Positions 1-15,639 of a stretch of 19,060 nucleotides of DNA are shown in pieces. The DNA comes from a bacterium (GTDB lineage Bacteria > AUK180): NCBI GenBank assembly GCA_030622125.1, contig JAUXGM010000026.1, positions 1 through 19,060 on the forward strand, written 5' to 3'. Both the position numbers and the translations under genes were made by a program. The notes beneath the pieces are model-generated. The model was not told the origin of the DNA. It saw nothing but the letters and a program-made list of their open reading frames with translations, and searched no databases. Position 1 is the first letter of the stretch. Each line of letters starts with the position of its first letter.

Positions 1-50
1 ACGTTGCTTGCATCGTGTGTCCCAAGACTGTGTCCCGGACTCTGTTTAGT

Positions 51-148
51 GTAGAAGATTGAAATTCTCATCTTCTACCTTTTAATTCATTTACTTTTTT
101 AAAGATGAAATTATATTTCATCTTTAACCTCAATTTTTCTGATTGAGG
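51..148. other. Run of three hairpins upstream of ABC exporter
   Basis: Three inverted repeats lie nearly end to end. 51-59 pairs with 70-78 (9 bp, GTAGAAGAT/ATCTTCTAC). 99-111 pairs with 115-127 (13 bp, 3-nt loop). 128-134 pairs with 142-148 (7 bp, CCTCAAT/ATTGAGG). All three stems are perfect and have unrelated sequences, and the second and third touch, so they could stack. A weaker 6-bp hairpin follows at 149-163. I do not recognise an RNA family, and no stem is followed directly by a clean T-run, so they do not look like ordinary terminators. The pairing is seen in the sequence; whether it acts as RNA or as DNA is unknown. Confidence 0.6.
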
Positions 149-193
149 AATAAAAAATTTATTTAAAACAGAAAAATATTTGAGATTAATCTT

Positions 194-322
194 TAAATTT
201 TCAGTTATGTAATGAAATTTCGTTATTCTAAATCTTTTTAATGATTAGAAAATTAATTTTCTACTTTAAAAAAAAGATTTAATGAAAAGTGATTTAGTAA
301 AATCACTTAAACTGAAAATTTA
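194..322. other. Predicted four-way-junction fold (possible structured RNA)
   Basis: An outer stem pairs 194-206 with 310-322 (13 bp). It encloses three arms with very short linkers: 210-225 (near-palindrome with one G-T pair); 229-239 with 271-281 (11 bp), itself holding an 18-nt perfect palindrome at 246-263; and 287-295 with 300-308 (9 bp, 4-nt loop). Linkers are 3, 3, 5 and 1 nt. Together this is a cloverleaf-like junction covering almost every base. AT-richness makes chance stems commoner, but a nested set this complete is unusual. It is not a tRNA (no T-loop or anticodon arm). It ends about 80 nt before the exporter promoter. Confidence 0.55.
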
Positions 323-335
323 GATGTCTTAAAAA

Positions 336-390
336 TCCGTGTAATCCGTCAAATCCGTGGTTAAAAAAATCTTATTTCGCAAAAAACTAC
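336..390 (+). repeat. Dispersed repeat, copy 1
   Basis: The segment carries CCGTG/CCGTC-type repeats and then a part (348-390) that recurs at 13200-13242 with 38 of 43 bases the same. It ends 11 nt before the -35 box of the exporter promoter. Its core TATTTCGCAAAAA (373-385) is also shared with 3915-3927. A related CGTGTAATTTG-type sequence is at 15550-15595, again just upstream of a promoter. Confidence 0.7.
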
Positions 391-401
391 TTTTTCCTCT
401 A

Positions 402-431
402 TTGGAATAATAAGTGATTTTTTCGTATAAT
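402..431 (+). promoter_or_regulatory. Promoter of the ABC exporter operon
   Basis: TTGGAA (402-407), an 18-nt spacer and a perfect TATAAT (426-431). Transcription should start around 438-439, which coincides with ATG 439, so the mRNA is probably leaderless. No SD site is visible before either possible ATG. Confidence 0.7.
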
Positions 432-438
432 GTATTAT

Positions 439-2178
439 ATGAAAAGCAAGGCAATATTTAAAAATTGGTATTCTTATTTAAAACCGCACATATTAGAGTT
501 CAGTGGCGGGATCGTTATAATTCTTTTTATTTCCGGTCTCTCCGCCTTTGCCCCAATGCTTATTAGAACCGTGATTGATTACGGCATATTGGGAAAAGAT
601 ATTCATATTCTTCTTTCTTCAACCCTCTCCTATCTTCTCATTTATTTCCTTTACTTTTGGCTAAATTTTCGGGTCACTGTTCAAATGGAAAAGCTCGGAC
701 AGGATATTTTAATAGATATAAAATCCGATACATATAAGGCATTATTGAAAAAAAAGATGGGATTTTTTTCCGAGTATTCGGAGGGAACACTTATTTCAAG
801 GGTAGAAAGTGATGGTGAGTCGGTAAGACAATTCTTTACATCAAATACGATCAGATTATTTTCCGATCTTATTATTTTAATAGGAATGATGATAATTATG
901 TCGGTTATCAATGTTACCCTATTCTTTTATTTAATGGTAACGATTGTTCCGATCCTAATATTTGTTGTCTATCTCTATTCAACAATGGCAAGACCAAGAT
1001 ATTTAAAGTATAGAAAAGTAATCGCTTCTCTTTCTTCTTTCATTGTAGAGTATTTTAAAGGAATGGAACTTGTTAAGATATTCGATAGGAGAAATTTTAT
1101 AAAAAAGTTTCTCAAAAAATTGGATGCCGATTATTACAAGACAGGTTTCAAGGCAGAATATCTCAATATTATCTTTTTTAATTTTATAACCTTTGTCCAG
1201 ATTGTTGGATTTGCAATTGTTCTCTGGTTCGGTGGGAAGATGATGTTAAAAGGAACTACAACGATAGGAACCCTTGTCCTTTTTATTACCTATATCAGAC
1301 AATTTTTTGAACCGATAAGAAGTCTTTCCTTTCAGATAAGTGCTATTGAAAAAGCAAAAGCATCAAGTGAGCGGATTTTTGAGATACAAAAAGAAGAAGA
1401 TAATATTGAATATCAAGGGGAAATAAGTCCGACCTATAATAATTTAATTGAATTTAAAAATATTGATTTTTCCTATGATAAGAATAAAAAAGTCCTAAAA
1501 AATGTATCACTTGCTATAAAAAAAGGTAAAAGAATAGCTTTGATCGGAAGAACCGGCGGCGGTAAAACAACTATAATTAAACTGCTTCTAAAATTAATAG
1601 CACCTAATAACGGAGAAATAATAGTAGACGGCAAAAAATTATCGAATCTAAAAACCAATGCTTGGCGAGAACAAATCGGTTATATTTCACAATCTATTTT
1701 TCTTTTTTCAGGTACACTTATGGATAATTTGAAGATGTTTGATAACTCAATTGAAGAAGAAGAGGTTTTTGACGCTGCAAAAAAGGTAGGTGTTTACGAC
1801 TATATTAGATCATTACCAAAGGAATTCAATACCGAGGTGTTGGAAGGTGGAAGCAATTTTTCAAAAGGGCAGCAGCAACTTTTCAATATCGTTCGTGCGA
1901 TTGTTAAAAAACCGAATATTCTTATTATGGATGAGGCAACCTCTACTATTGACGCAAAATATGAAAGAGCGATCGTCAAAGCATTGAGAAGGATCGCAAA
2001 AGATACGACTATGATAGCAGTTGCCCACAGAATATCTACAATAAGTGATTCAGATAAAATATTTATTATTGATGATGGCAGAATTATCCAAAGCGGAACA
2101 CACCAGGACTTAATTAAAGAAAGTAATATCTATAAGCGATATAATTCCATTCTAAGCGGAGAGATAGATGAAAAATAG
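439..2178 (+). CDS. ABC exporter half-transporter, catalytically competent subunit
   Basis: An inner-membrane half-transporter: six-helix membrane domain (about residues 1-320) fused to an ATPase domain. It resembles the heterodimeric multidrug or lipid exporters (BmrCD, TM287/288, LmrCD). Visible motifs, numbered from ATG 439: Walker A GRTGGGKTT 370-378, signature FSKGQ 474-478, Walker B ending in D498 with catalytic E499, and switch H530. The catalytic Glu and His are present, but the signature deviates from LSGGQ. An in-frame ATG at 430 lies inside the -10 box, so 439 is the better start and gives a leaderless mRNA of 579 codons. It overlaps the next gene by 11 nt, so the two are surely co-translated and form one exporter. 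The substrate cannot be told from the sequence. Confidence 0.93.
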   Translation: MKSKAIFKNWYSYLKPHILEFSGGIVIILFISGLSAFAPMLIRTVIDYGILGKDIHILLSSTLSYLLIYFLYFWLNFRVTVQMEKLGQDILIDIKSDTYKALLKKKMGFFSEYSEGTLISRVESDGESVRQFFTSNTIRLFSDLIILIGMMIIMSVINVTLFFYLMVTIVPILIFVVYLYSTMARPRYLKYRKVIASLSSFIVEYFKGMELVKIFDRRNFIKKFLKKLDADYYKTGFKAEYLNIIFFNFITFVQIVGFAIVLWFGGKMMLKGTTTIGTLVLFITYIRQFFEPIRSLSFQISAIEKAKASSERIFEIQKEEDNIEYQGEISPTYNNLIEFKNIDFSYDKNKKVLKNVSLAIKKGKRIALIGRTGGGKTTIIKLLLKLIAPNNGEIIVDGKKLSNLKTNAWREQIGYISQSIFLFSGTLMDNLKMFDNSIEEEEVFDAAKKVGVYDYIRSLPKEFNTEVLEGGSNFSKGQQQLFNIVRAIVKKPNILIMDEATSTIDAKYERAIVKALRRIAKDTTMIAVAHRISTISDSDKIFIIDDGRIIQSGTHQDLIKESNIYKRYNSILSGEIDEK

Positions 2179-3892
2179 TGATTCAATAAAATTCGTATTA
2201 GAAAGATGGAAATATTATCCCGGAAAGGCAATACTTATTGTTCTCTTTACCATACTAAATACAGGCGTTGTCCTCCTCTATCCCTACATACTTGGGCAAA
2301 TAGTCGACGGGCTTGGACAAGGTGTATCCATCAGGAATATTGCAAGATATATCCTTATTCTTATTGGTTCCGGTCTTGGAATTGTTGTTTTTTACACGAT
2401 ACTTCAAAGCTTACGGTTAAGTATGAATCTTATCCTTGCAAATAGGATAAGAGAAGAGATCTATTTTAAATTCACAGGTTATAAGGCTTCATTTTTCAAA
2501 AAATTTAAGTCGGGAGATGTTGTTGCACGACTCATAGATGATATGGAACGATTAACATGGTTTATGAGTTCGGGAATATTTCGCGGCCTTGAAGGATTAT
2601 TTCTTTTGGTCTTTGGTCTGGTCATTCTTTTAAGAATAAATGTTCTATTAACATTGATCTCTATTGTTCCGCTTTTTGGCATTATCACGATACTCCTTTT
2701 TGCAACAGAAGAATTAATGGAGAAAAAATATAAATTGGTTCAAACATACATTTCAAAGGTAAATGATTTTTTAAACACCTCCTTTGGCGGCATCGTTTTC
2801 ATTAAAGTGAGAAGCAAAAATTCGCTTTTCAATGATCTATTTAAAAGATTATTATTGGAGAGAAAGGTAAAAGAGATAGATGCTATTCAATTTGAAAATT
2901 TTGCAAATTTTTGTTATGGACTTGGTATAATGACGGCAATTGCCGTTTTTTTATTTTTTGGCGGAAAAACGGCAATAGCAGGAAAAATCACTCTTGGTAA
3001 CTTTGTGGCATTTTCACAATATCTTATCGTTTTAATTGAACCGATGTTCTCATTGAGTTTTTTTATACTGGCGCATGCAAGGTCAAAAGCATATATCGGA
3101 CGATTAAGACAGCTTTTGAATGATGCAAATAAAGAGGATGCAACAAGGAATAAGGATATAAGCGAATTTAAAAGGAAAATTTTATTTAAAGATGCTTCAC
3201 TTGGTTATGATGACAAAATTATCCTTCATGATCTGAATTTTTCAATAAAAAAAGGTGAAAAGATCGGCATTATCGGTGATGTCGGTGCAGGAAAAACGAC
3301 CTTATTAAAGGGAATACTTGGGATAATTCCACCGGATAAAGGAACCATAGCTATTGACGATATTTCGGTTTCAAGTATTACATATCATTCAATATCAAAG
3401 ATATTCGGCTATACCCCACAGGAAAACATTCTATTTACAACGAGTATAAAAGATAATATAACTTTTTCAGAAAATTCTATCCGTGAAAAAAAAATCATAA
3501 GATCTCTAAACATTGCGGAATTTGAAAAAGACCTGTCGGAATTTAAAAATGGTATTGACGAACAACTTGGAACTTCCGGTAAAACATTATCCGGGGGACA
3601 GAGGCAGCGGATAGCTATTGCAAGAGCGATCGTTTCTTCACATAGTATATACATATTTGATGATATAACATCATTTCTTGATCCTGAAACGGAATACCAA
3701 CTCATTCACAAATTGGGAAGTGAGATAAAGGATAAAAATGTATTCGTTGTTTCCTATCGCCCCTATACGCTATCCAATATGGACAGGATCATTTTGCTAA
3801 AAAACGGCAAGATAGATAAAATTGATACGCATAAAAATTTATTAAAAAGAAGTGTTTACTACAGGGATCTTCTCTTATTTGAAGGGCGGTAA
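2168..3892 (+). CDS. ABC exporter half-transporter, degenerate-site subunit
   Basis: Second half of the heterodimeric exporter: membrane domain (about 1-320) followed by an ATPase domain. Walker A GDVGAGKTT 370-378 and a canonical signature LSGGQ 474-478 are present. Walker B ends D498 but is followed by D499 where the catalytic Glu belongs, and the switch His is Y530 (motif VSYRP). Heterodimeric exporters typically keep one weak ATP site made of the Walker and His residues of one chain plus the off-consensus signature of the other. Here that is this chain plus FSKGQ of the upstream chain. Exactly the same numbering of all motifs in both genes shows they are close paralogues. GGAGAG lies just before the ATG inside the upstream gene. 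Confidence 0.93.
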   Translation: MKNSDSIKFVLERWKYYPGKAILIVLFTILNTGVVLLYPYILGQIVDGLGQGVSIRNIARYILILIGSGLGIVVFYTILQSLRLSMNLILANRIREEIYFKFTGYKASFFKKFKSGDVVARLIDDMERLTWFMSSGIFRGLEGLFLLVFGLVILLRINVLLTLISIVPLFGIITILLFATEELMEKKYKLVQTYISKVNDFLNTSFGGIVFIKVRSKNSLFNDLFKRLLLERKVKEIDAIQFENFANFCYGLGIMTAIAVFLFFGGKTAIAGKITLGNFVAFSQYLIVLIEPMFSLSFFILAHARSKAYIGRLRQLLNDANKEDATRNKDISEFKRKILFKDASLGYDDKIILHDLNFSIKKGEKIGIIGDVGAGKTTLLKGILGIIPPDKGTIAIDDISVSSITYHSISKIFGYTPQENILFTTSIKDNITFSENSIREKKIIRSLNIAEFEKDLSEFKNGIDEQLGTSGKTLSGGQRQRIAIARAIVSSHSIYIFDDITSFLDPETEYQLIHKLGSEIKDKNVFVVSYRPYTLSNMDRIILLKNGKIDKIDTHKNLLKRSVYYRDLLLFEGR

Positions 3893-3914
3893 TTCAGACA
3901 AATAAATAATTTTC

Positions 3915-3974
3915 TATTTCGTAAAAAGTTGTCGTCCAAAAATATTTGCCAAAAAACGTAAATTGTGTTAAAAT
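3915..3974 (+). promoter_or_regulatory. Promoter of the purine operon with upstream element
   Basis: TTGCCA (3946-3951), a 17-nt spacer and TAAAAT (3969-3974). The predicted transcription start falls on ATG 3981. A copy of the element TATTTYGYAAAAA lies at 3915-3927, 66 nt before that ATG, the same distance as for the exporter gene. Confidence 0.65.
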
Positions 3975-3980
3975 AATACT

Positions 3981-4013
3981 ATGAACAAAAAAGGTATTCG
4001 GGAGTTACTATGA
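3981..4013 (+). CDS. Ten-codon leader mini-ORF
   Basis: Reads MNKKGIRELL then stop. Its ATG lies where transcription should begin, and its TGA overlaps the ATG of the 2Fe-2S subunit gene (ATGA, 4010-4013). The codons CGG GAG also supply the GGGAG SD site of that gene. Ribosomes loading on a leaderless mRNA could translate it and reinitiate at 4010. It could equally be an untranslated 5' leader with a chance ATG. The shared spacing of the upstream element to three such ATGs favours real use. Confidence 0.4.
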   Translation: MNKKGIRELL

Positions 4014-4474
4014 AAATAGATATTAAATTGAACGGGCAAAGAAAAAGTTTTGAGGTAGATCCTTCTGAAAAAGTGCTCGATTTCTTAAGAAGAATCGGTC
4101 TTAAAGGTGTAAAAAAGGGATGTTCAACCGGAGATTGCGGTAGTTGTGCCATTATTTTAGATGGGAAGATCGTCAATTCCTGTATGTTATTCGTTGGTCA
4201 GATAGATGGGCATACAATTGAAACAATTGAGGGACTGGGAACCATTGAAGAACCACATCCTATACAAAAGGCATTTGTTGAAGAGGGAGCTGTGCAATGC
4301 GGATTTTGTATACCCGGAATGATACTTGCCGCAAAAGCACTTTTGGATAAAAAACCGACACCTTCAATTACCGATATAAGAACTGCACTTTCAGGTAATC
4401 TATGTAGATGCACGGGATATGTCAAGATAGAAAAAGCGGTGCTGAAAGCAGCAAAAATGATGAGGAAAAAATGA
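4010..4474 (+). CDS. 2Fe-2S subunit of molybdenum hydroxylase (XdhC/CoxS type)
   Basis: Small electron-transfer subunit of a xanthine dehydrogenase-family enzyme, 154 residues, the usual length. Plant-type 2Fe-2S ligands C38, C43, C46 and C58 (motif CSTGDCGSC) are in the N-terminal ferredoxin domain. The second cluster is bound by C97, C100, C132 and C134 (QCGFC and LCRCTGY) in the helical domain. All eight cysteines are present. The start has GGGAG 6 nt upstream. It overlaps the molybdopterin subunit gene by ATGA, so 1:1 production is likely. It would pass electrons from the Mo site onward; the normal receiver, an FAD subunit, is not encoded in this window. Confidence 0.93.
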   Translation: MKIDIKLNGQRKSFEVDPSEKVLDFLRRIGLKGVKKGCSTGDCGSCAIILDGKIVNSCMLFVGQIDGHTIETIEGLGTIEEPHPIQKAFVEEGAVQCGFCIPGMILAAKALLDKKPTPSITDIRTALSGNLCRCTGYVKIEKAVLKAAKMMRKK

Positions 4475-6768
4475 AATTCAAAGAAGTAAATAAAAATGTA
4501 AATAAGGTTGACGGACTTTCTCTTGCAACGGGGAGAGCGAAATTTGTTGACGATGTGGATTTCAAAGATCTACTTATTATAAAATTTTTAAAAAGTCCGA
4601 TAGCACATGGCATTATAAGATCAATAGATACATCAAAAGCAGAGAAAATAAAAGGGGTTCATTTAATTTTACATCATAATAACTGTCCGTACATATCACA
4701 TACAACAGCTGGACAGGGGTATCCCGAGCCTTCCCCTTATGATACTTATATGTTTGACAAAAAGGTCAGATATGTCGGGGATTATGTTGCTCTTGTGGCA
4801 GCCGAAACAGCTGATATCGCTGAAAAAGCATTGAAAAAGATCAAGGTTGAATATGAAGAACTCCCCTCCATATTGGATCCGCATTATGCAATGAAAAAAA
4901 ATGCTCCTATAATACATGATGAGAGATCATCCACCGGGATATATAATAAGAAAAAGAATATTGCAGGTCATGTCAAAGTTCAGGTTGGGAATGTTGAAAG
5001 GGCATTAAAGGATTCGGATGTTGTATCCGAATTCGAAGTAGAAACACATTATAGTCAGCATACACCTATTGAGCCGCATATTACAATTACCTATCTTGAT
5101 GAAAAAGGAAGATTGATAATACGGACATCTACACAGGTACCATATCATGTGAGAAGGATATGTGCTCATGTTCTTGATATACCTGAGAAAAAGATCAGGG
5201 TAATAAAACCGCGCATAGGCGGTGCCTTCGGAACAAAACAAGAGGTCTATCTTGAATATTATGCGGGTAGAGTAACGCTTCTTACGGGATTACCGGCTAA
5301 GATTGAACTTACGAGAGAGGAGGAATTTTTATCAAGAACACGCCATCCGATGATCGTTAAAATAAAACTTGGAGCAAGTAAAAAAGGAATATTAAATGTT
5401 ATTGATATGGATGTTATTTCGAATACAGGAGCTTACGGTTCTCATGCTCTTACCGTTATGTTCAATGCCGGAAGCAAGTGTCTTCCTCTTTACAAGGCGG
5501 AAAATGTTCGGTTCGTTGGAACGACCGTCTATACAAATCTGCCGGTTGCAGGGGCATATAGAGGCTACGGTGCAACACAAGGTTATGCCGCATTAGAACA
5601 AGCAATGGATGTCCTTGCCGAAAAATTAAATATGGATCCTGTAAAACTACGACTGCTGAATCATATTAAAAAAGGCGAAACTTCACCTATATTTGCCGCT
5701 TTGGGAGAAGGGAAAAAGGGTGTTCCTCAATATATTAAATCCATTCGATTAGATGATATAATTGAATGGGGATCAAAAAAAATCCAATGGGAAAAGAGAA
5801 AACCATACACTAAAAAAACAGGAAGATACAGAAAGGGTAAAGGTATGGGTATCTTTATGCAGGGATCCGGCATTCCTCTTGTTGATATGGCATCTGCTTC
5901 GATCAAGATCAATGATGACGGTTCGTTTAATCTTTTAGTCGGGGCAACGGATCTTGGAACCGGTTCCGACACTGTTCTTTCCCAGATAGCAGCAGAGGCG
6001 TTAAAAACGACCACCGATAATATTGTTATCTATTCATCCGATACCGATATGACGCCATTTGATGTCGGTGCCTATGCCTCATCTACAACTTATATATCCG
6101 GTGGTGCGGTTAAGGTAACGGGAGAAAAAGTCTTGACCCAAATCAAAAAAGTTGCAGCAGAGATGCTAAAATGTGATATAAAGGATATTGAATGTGAAAA
6201 TAGAATTGCAAAGAACAAGAAAAATAATAAGAAAAAAACTTATGGAGATATAGCGAAATACGGACTCTATGAAAAAAATCAATTTCAGATCGGGTATATC
6301 GGATCTCATATCTCACCGGTTTCTCCTCCACCTTTTATGGCTGTCTTTGCAGAGATCGAAGTTGATATATGGACGGGTAAAATAAAGGTTTTAAAATATG
6401 TATGCGGTGTTGACTGCGGCACGGCGATCCATCCCAAACTTGCAGAAGGACAGGTTGAGGGTGCTGCTGTAAACGGACTTTCTTATGCATTGACAGAGGG
6501 TTATATATTTGATAAAAAAGGAAGAATGCTCAATAATAATTTTCAAGATTACAAAATATTTAATATAGAAGACATCCCAAAACTTGAAATAAAATTATTT
6601 CCGAGTTATGAACCGAGTGGACCTTATGGGGCAAAGAGTGTTTCCGAGATTGGAATAAACGGACCGGTACCGGTTCTTTCAAATGCCCTTTACAATGCTG
6701 TGGGTGTCCGACCTACGCGGTATCCGCTAAGTTCAGAATATGTATTGAAATTACTTGAAGAAAAATGA
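4471..6768 (+). CDS. Molybdopterin-binding subunit, xanthine dehydrogenase family
   Basis: Catalytic large subunit of a molybdenum hydroxylase, 765 residues, normal for the stand-alone XdhA-type chain. Visible landmarks: GGAFGTKQE 250-258, AYRGYG 362-367 (the RGF/RGY loop near the Mo site), GATDLGTG 491-498, and the segment AKSVSEIG in which E726 is the expected base-catalyst Glu. The reading frame is open 21 codons further upstream, but ATG 4471 has GAGG ahead of it and makes an ATGA overlap with the 2Fe-2S gene, so the longer form is rejected. The following 8-oxoguanine deaminase makes a purine (hypoxanthine, xanthine or urate) the likeliest substrate. Sequence alone does not exclude aldehydes or N-heterocycles. 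Cofactor-insertion (XdhC chaperone) and FAD-subunit genes are absent here. Confidence 0.9.
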   Translation: MKFKEVNKNVNKVDGLSLATGRAKFVDDVDFKDLLIIKFLKSPIAHGIIRSIDTSKAEKIKGVHLILHHNNCPYISHTTAGQGYPEPSPYDTYMFDKKVRYVGDYVALVAAETADIAEKALKKIKVEYEELPSILDPHYAMKKNAPIIHDERSSTGIYNKKKNIAGHVKVQVGNVERALKDSDVVSEFEVETHYSQHTPIEPHITITYLDEKGRLIIRTSTQVPYHVRRICAHVLDIPEKKIRVIKPRIGGAFGTKQEVYLEYYAGRVTLLTGLPAKIELTREEEFLSRTRHPMIVKIKLGASKKGILNVIDMDVISNTGAYGSHALTVMFNAGSKCLPLYKAENVRFVGTTVYTNLPVAGAYRGYGATQGYAALEQAMDVLAEKLNMDPVKLRLLNHIKKGETSPIFAALGEGKKGVPQYIKSIRLDDIIEWGSKKIQWEKRKPYTKKTGRYRKGKGMGIFMQGSGIPLVDMASASIKINDDGSFNLLVGATDLGTGSDTVLSQIAAEALKTTTDNIVIYSSDTDMTPFDVGAYASSTTYISGGAVKVTGEKVLTQIKKVAAEMLKCDIKDIECENRIAKNKKNNKKKTYGDIAKYGLYEKNQFQIGYIGSHISPVSPPPFMAVFAEIEVDIWTGKIKVLKYVCGVDCGTAIHPKLAEGQVEGAAVNGLSYALTEGYIFDKKGRMLNNNFQDYKIFNIEDIPKLEIKLFPSYEPSGPYGAKSVSEIGINGPVPVLSNALYNAVGVRPTRYPLSSEYVLKLLEEK

Positions 6769-8129
6769 AGATCCTAATTAAAAATATTGACACATTGGAA
6801 ACGGTAACAAAGGGAAGATTCAATAATTACGACATTTTGATCAAGGACAAAATAATAAAAAAAGTAGCAAAAAATATTTGTGAAACTGTTGATAGAACAA
6901 TAGATGCAAGTTCATTGGTTGCATTACCCGGTTTTATTAATACACATCATCATTTTTATCAAACATTTACAAGAAATCTTCCAAAATCGCAGGATGTCTC
7001 ACTTTTTGATTGGCTCAAGTTCCATTATAAAGTATGGGAAAAATTAAATCCCGAAGACATCTATTTGAGCGGACTTACCGCAATGGCTGAAATGATGCTT
7101 ACCGGAGTAACGACCACAACGGATCATTTGTATCTTTATAAAAACAATCAATTTGATAACTGGATAGAGAATGAGATTCAAGCTGCAAAAGAGATCGGCA
7201 TGAGATTTTATCCGGGAAGAGGTTCAATGTCTCTATCGCAAAAGGACGGGGGGCTTCCACCTGATAGTGTTGTACAGGATGAAGCAAGGATAATGGCACA
7301 TTGTGAAGATATTGTCAATAAATATCATGATCGGGAACGATTATCGATGCTCCGAATCTCTCTTGGTCCTTGTTCTCCCTTTTCAGTGACACCGGAACTC
7401 TTAAAGGTTAGTGCCGAATATGCAAAAAAGGAAGAGCTCCTTCTACACACACATCTTGCGGAAACAAAAGATGAAGAAAAGTTTTGCATCGGAAAATTTG
7501 GACATAGACCCTACGATTATATGAAGGATCTTGGATGGGATAATGATAGAGTCTGGTATGCCCATGCTGTTCATCTGAATAACAAAGAGATTGCCGATAT
7601 GGCAAAAAACGGCATCGGCATCTCTCATTGTCCGTCATCAAATATGCGACTCGGCTCCGGTGCCGCTAAGATCCCGGAGATGTTAAAAAAAAGAATAAAT
7701 GTTTCACTTGGAGTTGACGGTTCCGCATCAAACGATACATCTGATTTTCTTGCCGAAATGAGGCAAATGCTTTTGCTTGGCAGGGTAGCCTGGGGTGCCG
7801 GTGCGATAAAAACAATGGATGTAATTAAAACAGCAACGATCGGTGGTGCAAATGTTCTGCACTGGAATGATACCATCGGTTCTATTGAAGAAGGGAAGGC
7901 AGCAGACATAACTCTCTGGGATTTGAATGATGTCTCTTATATCGGAGCACAGAGCGACCCTATTGCTGCTTTGATCTTCTCGGGTCGTTGTCATCAGGCA
8001 AGGTATGTATTTGTAAATGGCGGGATCACCGTTGAGGACGGTCATCTTAAAAATATTGATGAGCAGATGCTTATAAAAAGGGGAAAAACAGCCAGTTCAA
8101 GATTATGGAAACGAGCAGGGATCATTTAA
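6765..8129 (+). CDS. 8-oxoguanine deaminase (amidohydrolase superfamily)
   Basis: A 454-residue metal-dependent deaminase of the AtzA/TrzN branch. Predicted reaction: 8-oxoguanine + water to urate + ammonia. Metal and active-site residues seen: H61 and H63 (THHHF), H228 and H230 (LHTHLAET), H267 and H270, H288 (SHCPSSN) and D318 (GVDGSASND). The stretches around HHHFYQTFTRNLP and TTTTDHLYLY match what I remember of characterised 8-oxoguanine deaminases, and separate it from guanine deaminase and chlorohydrolases. The ATGA overlap with the molybdopterin subunit means the two are co-translated. Urate from this enzyme could be reduced to xanthine by the neighbouring enzyme in an anaerobe, or the pair could scavenge oxidised purines. 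Family is certain, substrate is likely. Confidence 0.85.
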   Translation: MKILIKNIDTLETVTKGRFNNYDILIKDKIIKKVAKNICETVDRTIDASSLVALPGFINTHHHFYQTFTRNLPKSQDVSLFDWLKFHYKVWEKLNPEDIYLSGLTAMAEMMLTGVTTTTDHLYLYKNNQFDNWIENEIQAAKEIGMRFYPGRGSMSLSQKDGGLPPDSVVQDEARIMAHCEDIVNKYHDRERLSMLRISLGPCSPFSVTPELLKVSAEYAKKEELLLHTHLAETKDEEKFCIGKFGHRPYDYMKDLGWDNDRVWYAHAVHLNNKEIADMAKNGIGISHCPSSNMRLGSGAAKIPEMLKKRINVSLGVDGSASNDTSDFLAEMRQMLLLGRVAWGAGAIKTMDVIKTATIGGANVLHWNDTIGSIEEGKAADITLWDLNDVSYIGAQSDPIAALIFSGRCHQARYVFVNGGITVEDGHLKNIDEQMLIKRGKTASSRLWKRAGII

Positions 8130-8130
8130 A

Positions 8131-9354
8131 ATGAAAAAAGGACTCTTTATAAAATTAATGGAATGTTTCCCATTGGAATCTATAAAAGAAGATTTTAATA
8201 AATTGATATACAACCGAACTTATTTAAAAGCAATGGAGTATCGTTTTATTGTTGGAGATAATTTCGGATTAGCCGGATCTATGGGAACCGGTAAAACCTC
8301 CATCTTGAATTATTTAGAAGAAAAGATCCGTGCTAAAAATATGGGAGTTTGTATTAGAATAAACAGTTCCCTTTGTAATGAAGATATATTTTTTCGACTC
8401 CTCCTTTTTGAGCTTTTAAAGAATAATATCGTTAAAAAGATCTTTAATAAAGATATAAAGGAGTACAAAAAATATATTTACTCAACTCAATCATTAGAAG
8501 ATTTTCTTAGATCGTTGATCTATTTTGAGCCAAGAAAAGAACTTGATCATGCTCGGGTCATTACATTATACAAAGAATATTTAAAGGAGCAGTTTAGTTC
8601 CAATGCCGATGTTGATTTTATATTTAATACATATACATTAAAAAATATAATTGTTGAAATGCTTAGGAAAAGTCCGCGCCGCATATTCATTTTGGTAGAT
8701 GATTATGATAAATTTATGGTTGACCCTATGTCAAGAGAGGGAGGTGAAAATAGATTGGGACTTTTTCTGTCTTCCATAAAGGAATTTACCGAATTTTCAA
8801 AGACAACATGGGTTTTTGCATTGCCACGATCATACTACGAAAAATTCAAGATAGGAATGCCGTTTTCAAATCAACTGAATTTTCTTGGAATGTTTTCGGA
8901 GGTCTATATTACCCTTCCTTTTAATTTTACCGAATTAAGAAAATATATTACGCAAAGAATTGAAAAATTAGATTTATATCAACCGAATTTTATAGATGAA
9001 ACGGCATTAAAATTACTCTATGTTATGACCAAAGGAAATCCAAAAATGATAAATTATGTGATTAAAAGCGGACTTTACAATTGTAAGATAAGAAATGGTA
9101 AGAATTTAACGATTGATGATATGGTATCCGTTCTGTTGGTTAACGGGAAATACGATAAAAGAGATGGTGAAATAATCAAATATATATCTCAAAACAAACA
9201 AACATTCTCAAATGATAAATTACTTTTAGAGATATTGGGTGTAGATAATATCGCACTTATGATGAGACTTAACCGTCTTTTAAAAAAAGAACTTATTTCC
9301 TTTAAATTTTTTGAAGGCATTAAATATTTTCAATTAAACTATGAAGAAGAATGA
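8131..9354 (+). CDS. AAA ATPase, Orc1/Cdc6-like fold
   Basis: A 407-residue P-loop ATPase of uncertain role. Walker A GSMGTGKTS is at 49-57 and Walker B ILVDDYDKF around D190-D193. TKGNPKMIN near residue 310 looks like the sensor-2 GNP(R/K) motif. The last 80 or so residues look like a winged helix. This order is typical of AAA proteins of the Orc1/Cdc6 or MalT/ExeA type. ATG is 1 nt after the deaminase stop with no good SD site, so it probably depends on readthrough translation from that gene. It overlaps the small membrane protein gene by 14 nt. That pairing, ATPase plus GspC-like protein, hints at an ExeA/MshM-like envelope role rather than replication. Confidence 0.8.
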   Translation: MKKGLFIKLMECFPLESIKEDFNKLIYNRTYLKAMEYRFIVGDNFGLAGSMGTGKTSILNYLEEKIRAKNMGVCIRINSSLCNEDIFFRLLLFELLKNNIVKKIFNKDIKEYKKYIYSTQSLEDFLRSLIYFEPRKELDHARVITLYKEYLKEQFSSNADVDFIFNTYTLKNIIVEMLRKSPRRIFILVDDYDKFMVDPMSREGGENRLGLFLSSIKEFTEFSKTTWVFALPRSYYEKFKIGMPFSNQLNFLGMFSEVYITLPFNFTELRKYITQRIEKLDLYQPNFIDETALKLLYVMTKGNPKMINYVIKSGLYNCKIRNGKNLTIDDMVSVLLVNGKYDKRDGEIIKYISQNKQTFSNDKLLLEILGVDNIALMMRLNRLLKKELISFKFFEGIKYFQLNYEEE

Positions 9355-9637
9355 TAATATCGGGATATTATATCTTTTTATACTTTTAATCATTTTTAGC
9401 CTTCTTTTTCTTAATTTTTATACTATTACACCATTTAAGATCTCTGCAATAGCGGATAATTATATAATTCTTAAAAATAAGCAGAATGAGATTATTAGGG
9501 TTTATGTCAATGAAAAATTTCGTGGAATGAAAATAGATAAAATATTATTCAACTCAGTCGTAATAGAAAAAAAAGATTATGTCATAAACGATACTCTAAA
9601 TATTGGAAGGCATTTAAAAATTAGGGAACTCTTTTAG
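9341..9637 (+). CDS. Small membrane-anchored protein, GspC/PilP-like domain
   Basis: 98 residues: a short basic N-terminus, one membrane helix at about 7-27, and about 70 residues outside. The outer part (ISAIADNYIILKNKQ, then VYVNEKFRGMKIDKI, then SVVIEKK) follows the strand pattern of the GspC homology region and PilP: a value strand, a polar turn, a V.V...G.KI.KI segment and a final V.I.... It begins inside the ATPase gene (14-nt overlap) with no SD, so translation is coupled. Its last 17 nt overlap the end of the helicase gene on the other strand. The domain call is by pattern only. No type II secretion or pilus gene is nearby. Confidence 0.65.
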   Translation: MKKNDNIGILYLFILLIIFSLLFLNFYTITPFKISAIADNYIILKNKQNEIIRVYVNEKFRGMKIDKILFNSVVIEKKDYVINDTLNIGRHLKIRELF

Positions 9638-12110
9638 AGACGAGAAATTGCTTAATGTTCTCTATTGCGTCGTCTGTTTCAAGATATTTTATTTCAACAT
9701 TCGGATCAAGCTGAGAAAAAAATGTTTCCGCATGATTTTTTTGTTGTATCCTCTTATCAAGTATGAAGATACCACCCTTATCTGTTTTTGTTCTAATTAA
9801 CCGTCCTGTCGCTTGTTTAAAGGAAAGTTTTGCCGCTTGACGCATATAATTCGGAAAAACAGCGGATCTTTTCTTTACTACAATATCATTTGGCGGCAGA
9901 TAAGGCATCTTGAATATGACAAGGTATTTCAATATATCTCCGGGAAAATCGATTCCGTACCAATACGCTTTTACACCTAAGAGGACACTGTTCTTTTTAG
10001 TTCTGAATATTTCATTTATATATTCTCTATACCAGATACCGCTTTTTTGTTTTAACAGATTGATCTTATGAGAACTATCTTTTGATAAAGCATCATAGGT
10101 GTAATTCATATCGGCATAACTTGTAAAAAGGATCATTAAGCTTTCCTTGAAATGATCTATGAGTTTTTGAAGTGAATGGACAGCACTTTTTCTAAAACTT
10201 TCCTTATCCTGAAAAGAATAATAGGGGATATCATTCACTACATATACCTTCATTTGCCTTTTGAGGTTAAATAATTGTGGTATCTTCTTCCATTGAAAGT
10301 CCTCTAAACCTATCAGGTCACAAAAAAAATCCAAACTATTGTCAACCGATATTGTGGCAGATGTAAATATCAGGGTTTTTGTTTTTGGATAAAAATGTTT
10401 TTGCAGCAATCTTTTTGCAATTACGGGACGTATTGAAAGAGTCCATCCACCGTTCCAATCGCTTGAAAATAAGGATAGCCAATCCGTATCATCGGATACC
10501 TCTTCTTCTAATGTCCCTTTTAAAAGAGTGTCATATATTGACTCCAAATCCTCAATTGTATTTGAGATACGCATGTTAAGGTAGAGGTCTTTTTCAATTT
10601 CTTCCTTATATTCTTCATTCAACTCCGAAATAAAAAGTGAGAGCTGTCTTATATCTATTTTGATCTTACCGAGAAATTCAATGATCGGTTTCCAGTTATC
10701 ATTTTCAATTTCATCATAGATGTTTCCTTCAATCGGTTTTCGGGGATCAAAAAGATGGTTATTCCCAAGTTTAATCCGAATTTTACTTATTATTCTCTTG
10801 ATCCTTGCCATAGCAGATCGCTTTTTATTCATTGGAATAGCATTATTTTCCAATAAAAGTTCACCCAGTGTTTTGAAATGAGTTCTTTTTGAAGAAGAAA
10901 TTGCTTTTAAGACCTTAAAAATATAATAACTTGAGATTTCCTGTGTATAGGAAGAACAGGCGGCATCATCAAACTTATCCGCTTCATCAATAATACAATT
11001 AATCTCCTCAAAATTACCGTCTGCAACATAAGAGAGCATATTCCAGTGGTTGACAATTGCGATATTGGCATTTCGTACCTTTTTGATAGCGGTGAAATAT
11101 GGACATTCATTGAAAAATTTACATTTCCTACCGGGACAGTCATTCCTTCGTGCCATAATCTCATAAAAAATATTGGAATATTCGGTTTCATCTACTAATT
11201 TTTCCGGAAATATAAAAAGAGGCAATGAATCTTGTATCTGTGCATCAATAAATTGTGTAACCAATCCAAAAATAACAAGCGCTACTTTTTCATCTGCAAA
11301 GAGGTTTCCCGATTTTTTATTAAGAAGTTCTATCTTTATAAGACAGGGATAATTTTCTCTTCCAAATAAAATTGCAGTTCTCATCGGAGGTAGTAAGCTT
11401 TTAAGGAATTTTATCTCTTTTTTATATATTTGTATCTGCAATGATTTTGTATATGTGGAGATAAATATCGGTGTTTTTTTTAAGTAGGAATGTAAAATAG
11501 CAGGAATTAGATAGCCAAGTGTTTTTCCGGTTCCCGTCGGTGCTTCAATCGCCCAGAGCTCATTCTTGTTAAATGCTTGATTTACAAGATGTGCGAATTC
11601 ATTTTGAGGTTCTCTATCGGAAAAATTACTATATTTTTTTTGTATTGCCTTAAATATCTCATCAATCTTTTTATCATCAATAGGAGTATTCTTTTCTTCT
11701 CTTTCATTTTTTGTTTCATTGAATCTAAGAAAAGTTCTAAATAGTTCCTCTATCGAAACAGATCTTTCGCTTGGAAAACTATGGCTGCTGTAATATTTTG
11801 AACCTTCAATTAATATTAAAAGATCTCCAAATTTTTTATCATCGGTTGTTCTATGAAGAGTTCTTACGGATTGAACAACAAATTGTTGAAATAATAGCGG
11901 TTTCAAGAAGAATTTTTTGAGTAAGGTTTCAGTTGCTTTTTGCAATCTGTTTTTATCTTCTAAATCAATTTCAAGGTTCTGATAGATAACCTCAGGCGTA
12001 AATGCCATATCATTCGGTGAAAGAAAAAAAGCAATATCTTTTAATGAAAGACCTGTTATTTTATTGTCTTCGGATATTGTTACATTTAAATAGGCAATGA
12101 CCTTACTCAT
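9621..12110 (-). CDS. XPD/DinG-type ATP-dependent DNA helicase with Fe-S cluster
   Basis: Superfamily 2 helicase of 829 residues. Walker A APTGTGKT 190-197, DEAD box IIDEAD 373-378, and motif VI QATGRLIR near the C-terminus. Four cysteines between motifs Ia and II (C256, C325, C330, C336) match the XPD/DinG 4Fe-4S cluster. Expected role: 5' to 3' unwinding in repair or in clearing R-loops. The first 170 or so residues are not the DnaQ-like exonuclease found in some DinG proteins, and I do not recognise them. The start overlaps the end of mrp by 8 nt, so the two genes are one transcription unit. The functional link is plausible, since Mrp-family proteins carry Fe-S clusters and this helicase needs one. 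Confidence 0.9.
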   Translation of the reverse strand: MSKVIAYLNVTISEDNKITGLSLKDIAFFLSPNDMAFTPEVIYQNLEIDLEDKNRLQKATETLLKKFFLKPLLFQQFVVQSVRTLHRTTDDKKFGDLLILIEGSKYYSSHSFPSERSVSIEELFRTFLRFNETKNEREEKNTPIDDKKIDEIFKAIQKKYSNFSDREPQNEFAHLVNQAFNKNELWAIEAPTGTGKTLGYLIPAILHSYLKKTPIFISTYTKSLQIQIYKKEIKFLKSLLPPMRTAILFGRENYPCLIKIELLNKKSGNLFADEKVALVIFGLVTQFIDAQIQDSLPLFIFPEKLVDETEYSNIFYEIMARRNDCPGRKCKFFNECPYFTAIKKVRNANIAIVNHWNMLSYVADGNFEEINCIIDEADKFDDAACSSYTQEISSYYIFKVLKAISSSKRTHFKTLGELLLENNAIPMNKKRSAMARIKRIISKIRIKLGNNHLFDPRKPIEGNIYDEIENDNWKPIIEFLGKIKIDIRQLSLFISELNEEYKEEIEKDLYLNMRISNTIEDLESIYDTLLKGTLEEEVSDDTDWLSLFSSDWNGGWTLSIRPVIAKRLLQKHFYPKTKTLIFTSATISVDNSLDFFCDLIGLEDFQWKKIPQLFNLKRQMKVYVVNDIPYYSFQDKESFRKSAVHSLQKLIDHFKESLMILFTSYADMNYTYDALSKDSSHKINLLKQKSGIWYREYINEIFRTKKNSVLLGVKAYWYGIDFPGDILKYLVIFKMPYLPPNDIVVKKRSAVFPNYMRQAAKLSFKQATGRLIRTKTDKGGIFILDKRIQQKNHAETFFSQLDPNVEIKYLETDDAIENIKQFLVSKRVP

Positions 12111-13152
12111 TAAAATAACTGACTATCTTTTCAACGCTTTTAAAATAAGCCTGTGAAACACTGGAATCGGGAAAAACCTCTATTATCGGAGCACCTTCAT
12201 CTCCTTGTATTGTAACCTTCGGATCTATCGGTACCTTTCCCAATAATGGAACATTAAATTTTTCAGAAACCATACTTCCGCCACCTTCGCCGAAAATATA
12301 ATGCTTTTTGCGGGTATCGGGACATTCAAAGTAACTCATATTTTCAAGAAGCCCGATAACGGGTATATTTAGTTTTTGAAACATTACTATTCCCTTGATC
12401 GCATCAATATATGCTATTTTTTGAGGTGTTGTAACGATAATAACCCCATCTATTTTTGCACTCTGTGCAAGAGTTAACTGGACATCACCGGTTCCGGGTG
12501 GAAGGTCGATAAATAAGTAATCCAATTCAGGCCATTCAACCTCCGTCATAAATTGTTTCAGTGCACCGGTAACAAGCGGTCCTCGCCAGATAACAGGTGT
12601 ATTTTCTTCTAAAAAATAACCAATAGACATCATTTGAATTCCAAAATTTTCTATTGGCAATATCTTATTCTTTTCATTAGCGAAAGGCTTTTCCGATTCT
12701 GTTCCCATCATTGTCGGAACAGATGGTCCCCAGATGTCTGCATCCAAAAGTCCGACCTTATATCCCTTCTTTGCCATTGCAATTGCAAGACTAACGGTAA
12801 CGGTTGATTTTCCAACACCGCCTTTTCCCGACCCGACCGCAATAACATGTTTGATATTTCCCAATAACTTTTCATCGGATTTGATATTTACATTTTTGTT
12901 AAGGTTGACATCATTTACATCTTTTTTTAAAAGTTCCACACTAATATTTTTTTCAGGATATTTTGAGGACATTTTTTTAAGTATTTCTTTCTTAATTGAT
13001 TCATATTTTTTCATATTCGTAATATTTTGCAAGACAACGGATATCTCATTTTCAAGTATGAAATCCGCTGTTTTAACCATTCCAAAATCAACAATATCCC
13101 TATCCATTTCCGGGTATTTAATAGTTTTTAAGACATTTAAAAGTTTATCCAT
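12103..13152 (-). CDS. mrp: Mrp/NBP35-family Fe-S cluster carrier ATPase
   Basis: 349 residues. An N-terminal MIP18/DUF59-like domain (about 1-75) is followed by a deviant-Walker P-loop domain: GSGKGGVGKST 107-117, DADIWGPSVP from 137 and FIDLPPGTGD 214-223, all diagnostic of Mrp/ApbC. The usual CxxC near the C-terminus is reduced to C277-P-D-T, so the paired cysteines for a bridging cluster are incomplete. This variant is known in some bacterial Mrps. ATG 13152 has GGAG at 13159-13162. The 4-codon longer TTG start would bury that SD and is rejected. First gene of the minus-strand unit with the Fe-S helicase. Confidence 0.93.
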   Translation of the reverse strand: MDKLLNVLKTIKYPEMDRDIVDFGMVKTADFILENEISVVLQNITNMKKYESIKKEILKKMSSKYPEKNISVELLKKDVNDVNLNKNVNIKSDEKLLGNIKHVIAVGSGKGGVGKSTVTVSLAIAMAKKGYKVGLLDADIWGPSVPTMMGTESEKPFANEKNKILPIENFGIQMMSIGYFLEENTPVIWRGPLVTGALKQFMTEVEWPELDYLFIDLPPGTGDVQLTLAQSAKIDGVIIVTTPQKIAYIDAIKGIVMFQKLNIPVIGLLENMSYFECPDTRKKHYIFGEGGGSMVSEKFNVPLLGKVPIDPKVTIQGDEGAPIIEVFPDSSVSQAYFKSVEKIVSYFNE

Positions 13153-13175
13153 AATATACTCCAAAATTATTTAAC

Positions 13176-13204
13176 ATTTTATACTATAACACTTAAAAAG
13201 TCAA
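13176..13204 (-). promoter_or_regulatory. Promoter of mrp-helicase unit
   Basis: On the minus strand: TTGACT (13204-13199), a 17-nt spacer and TAAAAT (13181-13176). Transcription start is expected near 13169, which leaves a leader of about 17 nt holding the GGAG site. The -35 box overlaps the left edge of dispersed repeat copy 2. Confidence 0.7.
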
Positions 13205-13242
13205 ATCTGTGATTAAAAAAATCTTATTTTGCAAAAAGCTAA
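13200..13242 (+). repeat. Dispersed repeat, copy 2
   Basis: 38 of 43 bases match 348-390 in the same orientation. It lies between two divergent promoters: its left edge forms part of the mrp -35, and its right edge is 13 nt before the -35 of the plus-strand promoter. The core TATTTTGCAAAAA is at 13225-13237. Confidence 0.7.
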
Positions 13243-13255
13243 AACCATAAATAAT

Positions 13256-13284
13256 TTGATTTTTGGGATTAAAAAAGATATAAT
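13256..13284 (+). promoter_or_regulatory. Promoter leading to DUF1611 gene
   Basis: TTGATT (13256-13261), a 17-nt spacer and a perfect TATAAT (13279-13284). Expected start is about 13291-13292, on the ATG of a small ORF. It has the same layout as the exporter and purine-operon promoters. Confidence 0.65.
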
Positions 13285-13291
13285 CAAATAT

Positions 13292-13390
13292 ATGAAAAGA
13301 TATAAAATCAAAATAACAAAAAGGCAGATTGGTAAGATGGTGAGTCCATTAGATAGGATGAAAGAAGGAGATGATATTGGAAGATTATAA
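13292..13390 (+). CDS. Possible leaderless 32-codon ORF
   Basis: A basic peptide beginning MKRYKIKITKRQIGKM and ending at TAA 13388-13390. Its ATG falls at the predicted transcription start and 67 nt after the start of the shared upstream element. No relatives are recognised. It may be a remnant left when the downstream gene was acquired, or a leader peptide. Evidence is positional only. Confidence 0.35.
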   Translation: MKRYKIKITKRQIGKMVSPLDRMKEGDDIGRL

Positions 13391-13583
13391 CATCTATAAG
13401 GTGATATATACGAACATGGTTCAGATATATCCTTATTTTGGCAGTATATACGAACCTCTTTCATATATAAACAAGTTATATGCAATAAATTCAGAGCCCC
13501 TTATCAATAAATATATACCCCTCCAATTATTGTGTTCAATAATGGGTAATAAGAAATCAATCAATTTAGGTGATAACACATGA
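13377..13583 (+). CDS. Possible small protein coupled to DUF1611 gene
   Basis: About 68 codons, rich in Tyr, Ile and Leu, overlapping the preceding ORF. A strong AAGGAG (13365-13370) is 6 nt before a TTG at 13377. ATG 13371 would leave no spacing after that SD, so TTG is the better start. The TGA makes an ATGA overlap with the DUF1611 start, which is why I list it. Not recognised. It contains two copies of TATATACGAAC about 45 nt apart, so the stretch may instead be a regulatory region read by chance. Confidence 0.35.
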   Translation: MEDYNIYKVIYTNMVQIYPYFGSIYEPLSYINKLYAINSEPLINKYIPLQLLCSIMGNKKSINLGDNT

Positions 13584-14647
13584 ACGCGAAGGCAATAGTA
13601 TATTGTGACAATCAATTCGGGAAGATGGATGGAAAGATCACGAATGGACTTGTTAGGTACTCTAAAAAGTATGAGATTGTCGGTATTATTGACAGCTCAA
13701 AAGTTGGTATGGACGCTGGGGAATATCTCGATGGAATAAAAAACGGGATACCGATATTCCATGACCTCGATGACGCTATCGAAAGGTTAGAGGAGCGTCC
13801 AGAATATTTCATATATGGCATTGCACCCCTTAAGGCGTTTCTTACGAAGGAACAGCGGAAGCTAGTGTTCAAGGCCATAGAAAAGGGGATGGATATTGTA
13901 AACGGCCTCCAAGAGTTCTTTACCGACGATGAAGAGTTTATGCGAAAGGCAGAGGAATATGGCGTTAAATTATACGACATTAGAAAGCCTCCGGCGAAAA
14001 AAGATCTTCATCTCTTCTCCGGGCGCATTCTTAGAGTCAATATACCAATAGTGACCATACTTGGCACAGACAGCGCAGTTGGAAAGAGAACCACTTCTAT
14101 ACTACTTGCGGAAGCACTGAAAAAAGCAGGTTTGAACGTTGCATTTGTGGCAACTGGCCAGACAGGATTGATTCAAGGCGCAAAGTATGGCGTTGCATTA
14201 GATGCTATTATCGAGGAATTTATGACAGGGGAGATAGAAAACGCAGTTATGGAGGCATATGATACGGAATATCCAGACATAATCATAGTTGAAGGCCAGG
14301 GCGCATTGAGCCATCCAGCATACCTTAGTTCATGCGCCATTATACGGGGTGCGAGACCACGGGCAATCATAGTTCAGCACCCTCCAAAAAGAAAGAACAT
14401 CGGAGATTTCCCCTATATACCAATGCCAACCCTGGAAAGTGAGATAGAGCTATTAGAGGTTTTTTCAAGATCAAAGGTAATTGCCATCACACTCAACCAT
14501 GAAGATATGACGGGTGAGGAACTCAAAGAGACCATAATCGAGTATGAAAAGAAGTTCCAACTACCAACGACAGATGCTCTAAAGTATGGATGCGAAAAGC
14601 TTGTTAAAAGGATATTCAAAGTATTTCCAGAATTACTAAAAAAATAG
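13580..14647 (+). CDS. DUF1611 family P-loop protein (DgcN-like)
   Basis: 355 residues, the family's normal size. An N-terminal Rossmann-like part (about 1-145) contains YGIAPLKAFL. The C-terminal P-loop domain has GTDSAVGKRTT at 162-172 and IIIVEGQGALSHP further on. Known members include Thermotoga TM0796 and DgcN, an enzyme of D-glutamate use in marine bacteria, often next to a dipeptide epimerase. No epimerase is near here, so the substrate is open. AGGTGAT lies 5 nt before the ATG. Base use is unlike the neighbours: 60-nt lines I counted had 25 to 30 G+C, against 19 in an exporter line. That suggests transfer from another genome. Gene debris follows it directly. Confidence 0.82.
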   Translation: MNAKAIVYCDNQFGKMDGKITNGLVRYSKKYEIVGIIDSSKVGMDAGEYLDGIKNGIPIFHDLDDAIERLEERPEYFIYGIAPLKAFLTKEQRKLVFKAIEKGMDIVNGLQEFFTDDEEFMRKAEEYGVKLYDIRKPPAKKDLHLFSGRILRVNIPIVTILGTDSAVGKRTTSILLAEALKKAGLNVAFVATGQTGLIQGAKYGVALDAIIEEFMTGEIENAVMEAYDTEYPDIIIVEGQGALSHPAYLSSCAIIRGARPRAIIVQHPPKRKNIGDFPYIPMPTLESEIELLEVFSRSKVIAITLNHEDMTGEELKETIIEYEKKFQLPTTDALKYGCEKLVKRIFKVFPELLKK

Positions 14648-15476: not shown

Positions 15477-15549
15477 GTTATTTGTAAATTAATGTCCTAC
15501 GACAAATTCAAAAGATTTGTAAACCACAGCTCCCCTTTTTACGCTTTTA

Positions 15550-15595
15550 TTCGTGTTATTTGTACTAATTCGTGTAATTTGCATTAAAAAAAAAC
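15550..15595 (+). repeat. CGTGTAATTTG-type repeat ahead of a promoter
   Basis: Two imperfect units (CGTGTTATTTG and CGTGTAATTTG) then an A-run leading straight into a -35 box. Similar in content to 336-360, which also precedes a promoter. Confidence 0.5.
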
Positions 15596-15623
15596 TTGAC
15601 TTTTAAATTTAAAATGATATAAT
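15596..15623 (+). promoter_or_regulatory. Promoter, probably for the lipoprotein unit
   Basis: TTGACT (15596-15601), a 16-nt spacer and TATAAT (15618-15623). If used for the gene at 16112 it gives a leader of about 480 nt holding the C10 tract and a strong hairpin. Confidence 0.6.
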
Positions 15624-15639
15624 GATGCAAATTTTGATA

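Follow-up and report, generated by a model that had tools for sequence, protein, structure and literature searches.

Ends of a dispersed repeat lie at a preferred distance upstream of many unrelated promoters in an AUK180 bacterium

In a 19,060-nucleotide (nt) stretch of DNA from a bacterium of the AUK180 lineage (GenBank assembly GCA_030622125.1, contig JAUXGM010000026.1; hereafter the window, which is the whole contig and part of a 2.08-Mb genome in 192 contigs), the 13-nt sequence TATTTYGYAAAAA recurs ahead of three promoter-like sequences. We find that this 13-mer is the core of a longer element, E (TCTTATTTCGCAAAAAACTA), with which a dispersed, composite repeat ends on its right, outward-facing side and which stands at a preferred distance upstream of many unrelated promoters. 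On balance we think it probable that E is the end of a repeat resembling a miniature inverted-repeat transposable element (MITE) and that it likely has an upstream-element function, UP-like or protein-bound.

The 13-mer has three exact matches in the window and no others, all on the forward strand (373–385, 3915–3927, and 13225–13237), as a preliminary description of this DNA had reported; the mean in 200 dinucleotide shuffles of the window is 0.06, and no shuffle reaches three. These matches lie in E copies, also supported by a position weight matrix (PWM), at 370–390 (TCTTATTTCGCAAAAAACTAC; PWM score 31.5), 3912–3932 (TTCTATTTCGTAAAAAGTTGT), and 13222–13242 (TCTTATTTTGCAAAAAGCTAA), all on the forward strand. 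The "shared 13-nt element" of that description therefore stands as three exact copies, but sites 1 and 3 actually match over a dispersed repeat of ~41 nt (348–389 and 13200–13241); at site 3, the repeat phrase is present in truncated form as GTCAAATCTGTGATTAAAAAAA, at 13200–13221 on the forward strand. Site 1 is preceded by a composite dispersed-repeat array (1–369, forward strand), in which a hairpin-rich stretch is followed by a AATCCGTGTAATCCGTCAAATCCGTGGTTAA phrase at ~334–364; near-identical sequence precedes E at many loci, and the contig starts inside the array. Site 2 has no repeat array ahead of it and lies 22 nt past the stop codon of the upstream open reading frame (ORF).

Genome-wide, there are 42 copies of TATTTYGYAAAAA versus 5 of the reversed pattern, 52 of the core ATTTCGCAAA versus 2, and 78 of the arm phrase AATCCGTGGTTAA at up to one mismatch versus 1 in the reversed control. 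The E sites were seeded with the 13-mer, so that variant copies are under-counted, and many arrays are cut by contig ends. The family is restricted to this lineage: neither E nor the 13-mer is enriched in four genomes from the bacterium's family or in two from its class, and the exact 20-mer has a single match elsewhere, in a Bacteroidetes metagenome-assembled genome (MAG), in a genome collection that may omit the window's own or a near-identical genome. An 18-mer of E occurs in three contigs of viral_contigs; neither these nor the MAG match have an adjoining repeat or an evident promoter. We found no matching paper when the repeat words were sought in the literature.

Alignment of the E copies gives a conserved core, TCTTATTTCGCAAAAAACTAA, preceded by recurring phrases, chiefly AATCCGTATAATCCGTTAAATCCGTGGTTAAGAAAATCT or CTCTGTGTGCTCTGTGGTTATTATATTTCT, which often sit within long composite, hairpin-rich intergenic arrays where many contigs end. 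Among 67 pairs of copies with matching upstream 40 nt, identity is mostly 0.83–1.0 through E and then drops to the background of 0.30–0.47, which makes E the exact boundary of the copied sequence; what follows it are unrelated promoters. The preliminary description had missed that E is the end of a dispersed repeat. The opposite arm contains words related to those above in inverted orientation; its end, TTTAGAATTTCGCAAATGCCTC (E2), faces promoters at some loci and gene 3′ ends at others. Common to both arms, though imperfectly and in inverted order, are AATCYGT...GTGGTTAA and ATTTCGCAAA, a comparison drawn from a small number of complete elements. The core ATTTCGCAAA is common to two otherwise different repeat ends. 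Scanned against Rfam, the arrays gave no hit that reached the gathering score in any of 13 sources, and we rejected a known structured RNA family at that score. Intergenic regions of G000 (such as L016, L035, L042, and L073) are also densely filled with composite arrays built from a vocabulary of dispersed phrases (TGTGTCCCGGACTCTTCCTTAGATAACGATA, AGGTTAGAGGTTGGAGG, and CAGCACCTTCTTGGTGCTGTGG).

Using a simple consensus score for sigma70-type promoters with a threshold of at least 15, we found a promoter at 47 of the 56 E sites (84%), whereas random positions yielded one in 6.8% of cases and the opposite side of E in 7.4%; most of the remaining E sites resemble chance matches, several of which fall within coding sequence. 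The −35 begins 15–38 nt after the E start in 46 of the 47 promoter-linked sites (mode 31), and the distance from E to −10 is 53–55 nt in 19 of 46 (mode 54; p ~4e-6 against a uniform spread, corrected for the choice of window). E usually spans about −66 to −50 relative to the start site, a position that fits an UP-like or activator-bound element. The three −35/−10 pairs of the preliminary description are present in the window, all on the forward strand: TTGGAA-18-TATAAT at 402–431, TTGCCA-17-TAAAAT at 3946–3974, and TTGATT-17-TATAAT at 13256–13284, with E to −10 distances of 53, 54, and 54 nt, respectively, and with −10 boxes ending 6–7 nt ahead of the ATGs at 439, 3981, and 13292. By number alone, promoter-like pairs do not stand out in the window (92 versus 83 expected), so the weight of the observation lies in the motif plus its spacing.

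The near-constant distance of 66–67 nt to the ATG, proposed earlier from these three sites, does not extend to the genome, where the constant is the distance from E to −10. Of the E promoters that we could classify with one classifier (n = 38), 13 are leaderless-like and 25 lead to starts with a Shine-Dalgarno sequence; among promoters without E in 417 kb of the same genome, a closely similar rule gave 23 and 44 (Fisher p = 1.0), and a stricter cut gave 8 and 20. Since the leaderless fractions are equal with and without E, we reject a leaderless-specific module. In the 13 leaderless-like genes, E lies 49–69 nt from the ATG, and only three are at 66 nt. What survives of the earlier proposal is an element tied to promoters, at a near-fixed distance, at 47 of 56 sites, without its dedication to leaderless transcripts.

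The genes downstream of E are unrelated to one another and mostly housekeeping: among them are genes for ribosomal protein S20, SmpB, ornithine/aspartate carbamoyltransferase, a member of the purine nucleoside phosphorylase family, an AMP-binding enzyme, ABC ATPases, an aminotransferase, a type II/IV secretion ATPase (T2SSE), peptidases, and Fe-S proteins. With functions so mixed, no regulon is evident, and we rejected a coherent regulon under E.

A second, sister repeat end, TTATTTGGTAAAAAAACT...RTCCAAWATGT, occurs at eight loci (L093, L096, L098, L099, L105, L107, L122, and L217). Its −35 begins exactly 30 nt after RTCC in seven of the eight copies and 29 nt after it in the eighth; in those seven, the repeat stops 5 nt before the −35, and from those 5 nt onward the copies are unrelated to one another. 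This fixed distance speaks for repeat ends being positioned, or retained, at definite distances from promoters in this genome. Operator-like dyads, TTGGATT...AARTCCAA, which are related to this second module, were also noted just ahead of promoters at L156 (~9290–9340) and L179 (~905–960).

We propose that short, hairpin-rich, nonautonomous repeats probably spread by insertion or copying, and that copies may be kept, or directed, where their end falls at a preferred promoter distance in intergenic DNA. By covering about −66 to −50, E would occupy the region bound by the RNA polymerase alpha C-terminal domains or by class-I activators, and would most likely act as an UP-like or protein-bound element on unrelated, mostly housekeeping promoters, leadered or leaderless. 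That the repeat moves is suggested by direct repeats flush with both ends of three elements bounded by outward ends: TTTTCC (L018), TAAA (L096), and GTTT (L099), which may be target duplications. The genome has four Y1_Tnp genes of the type of REP-associated tyrosine transposases (RAYT; REP, repetitive extragenic palindromic), with 282–306 codons (L212–L215), none of them flanked by the repeat; we rejected a RAYT-driven REP system because the repeat is not beside these genes. As a separate observation, GGGGACGGTGGTTGC lies just ahead of a Y1_Tnp gene in C73 and resembles phrases of other intergenic regions.

Several points weigh against this proposal. The flush duplications are short, and none is present at L122 or L039. 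No transposase with these ends was found in a search for Y1_Tnp only, and no empty site could be compared, since the genus has no second member among the genomes searched and E is missing from the four of the same family. A period-10 helical phasing of E, carried by the 54-nt class alone, vanishes once that class is removed, and we dropped it. Finally, the core of E contains CG, whereas the Escherichia coli UP consensus of Estrem et al., in the form in which PMC4390567 cites it, consists of pure A/T tracts.

We nevertheless favor a repeat end with upstream-element function, and its main rival is promoter-guided placement, by which elements would preferentially insert at a fixed spacing ahead of the −35, led there by the promoter or the polymerase, with the end transcriptionally inert. 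The sister repeat, ending exactly 5 nt before the −35 in seven of eight copies with unrelated flanks, is placed more tightly than activation by itself would require, and the flush 4–6-bp duplications at three elements and the behavior of E2, which faces promoters and gene 3′ ends alike, likewise point to placement without function. The distance from E to the −35, however, varies over 15–38 nt, E sites lacking an array keep the spacing (54 nt at 3915 in the window), and the search limited to Y1_Tnp identified no transposase; we find inert placement rather doubtful. Also to be considered is a non-mobile E that serves a lineage-specific regulon as an UP element or an ordinary activator site, with repeats merely piled up upstream of it. 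Such a site would account for the preferred spacing to the −10, for E without an array as at 3915, and for a core, ATTTCGCAAA, common to E and E2, both promoter-linked; but where the upstream arrays match, copies agree throughout E and part immediately beyond it, meaning that E is copied together with the repeat, and the downstream genes form no coherent regulon, which leaves this explanation unlikely.

Far less credit is due to one promoter module dedicated to leaderless transcripts, the reading of the preliminary description. The three window sites, with their ATGs 6–7 nt past the −10, and the 13 leaderless-like promoters of 38 agree with it, but the 25 with a Shine-Dalgarno leader occur in the same ratio as at promoters without E, and no fixed distance from E to the ATG exists; we regard it as very improbable. 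Chance similarity in an A+T-rich genome could explain the count at two mismatches in the window (20 versus 14 expected), but it is already refuted by the exact count (3 versus 0.06), the genome-wide counts (42 versus 5 and 52 versus 2 for reversed patterns), and the promoter linkage (84% versus 7%), and we give it practically no credence. Beyond these alternatives, we tentatively raise an idea in which we have well under even confidence, namely that small mobile repeats let the promoter determine where they insert, stop a set distance short of the −35, and so provide many unrelated genes with one upstream control element; promoter-guided integration by Ty elements would be the counterpart of such bacterial repeat placement.

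In mobile promoters, or promoter propagation, promoter-region DNA is duplicated across a genome before unrelated genes; here, by contrast, the −35 and −10 are not copied, but only the DNA upstream of them. Correia elements, which are MITEs of Neisseria, are found close to gene starts and can contain promoters or integration host factor (IHF) sites (PMC10969869, PMC2229807). Like them, the repeat described here is short, non-coding, and dispersed (~50 E copies and 78 copies of the arm phrase), appears to have imperfect inverted arms, lies in intergenic DNA, mostly beside gene starts, and may affect transcription; unlike in Correia elements, the core promoter is wholly outside the copied sequence and the repeat end lies at a preferred distance from it. 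UP elements are A/T-rich sequences upstream of the −35 that are bound by the alpha C-terminal domain (PMC4390567). E likewise keeps within a limited range ahead of the −35 (15–38 nt, mode 31, in 46 of 47), contains an A-tract, and is found on many unrelated promoters, but it differs from UP elements as that source portrays them in being a CG-containing 20-mer that is nearly letter-for-letter conserved, is borne by a repeat, and is mostly upstream of the proximal subsite. In composition, E has A5-6 and TTT tracts but a near-invariant CG core, with position-specific information of up to 2.1 bits. REP and REPIN (REP doublet forming hairpins) sequences with RAYT, so far as PMC3116915 describes them, are similar in being short palindromic intergenic repeats, in this case in a genome with four Y1_Tnp genes, and different in that the repeat here is not found beside such genes.

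The three ATGs of the window, all described earlier as leaderless-looking, differ in what they open. The ATG at 439 begins a long gene, an ABC exporter of 579 codons (439–2178, forward strand; ABC_membrane and ABC_tran, PF00664/PF00005, by Pfam), which has no Shine-Dalgarno sequence and looks leaderless, whereas those at 3981 and 13292 open short ORFs. The first of these encodes MNKKGIRELL* (10 codons; 3981–4013, forward strand), and its stop overlaps the start of a gene for the 2Fe-2S subunit of a xanthine-dehydrogenase-type enzyme (4010–4474, forward strand; Fer2_2/Fer2 by Pfam), with GGGAG ahead of the ATG at 4010. The true gene start is the ATG at 4010, and the message would carry a leader of ~29 nt. 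The leaderless-looking 10-codon ORF is a possible leader peptide of this Fe-S subunit gene. The second short ORF (13292–13390, forward strand) has a translation of 32 codons with no Pfam match, and is followed by a 70-codon ORF and then by a DUF1611 gene at 13580. The latter (13580–14647, with both domains) looks by eye to have a higher G+C content than its neighbors, and may be a recent acquisition. Further along, at 15540–15625, another phrase-like repeat (ATTCGTGTTATTTGTACTAATTCGTGTAATTTGCATTAAAAAAAAAC) lies directly ahead of TTGACT-16-TATAAT.

Should the repeat ends be positioned or maintained at a fixed spacing from promoters, this genome would offer a natural many-copy experiment on the spread of upstream promoter DNA. 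It would show how far upstream sequence can rewire transcription without touching the core promoter, and would suggest a way in which a small, gene-dense genome can benefit from intergenic repeats or take no harm from them.

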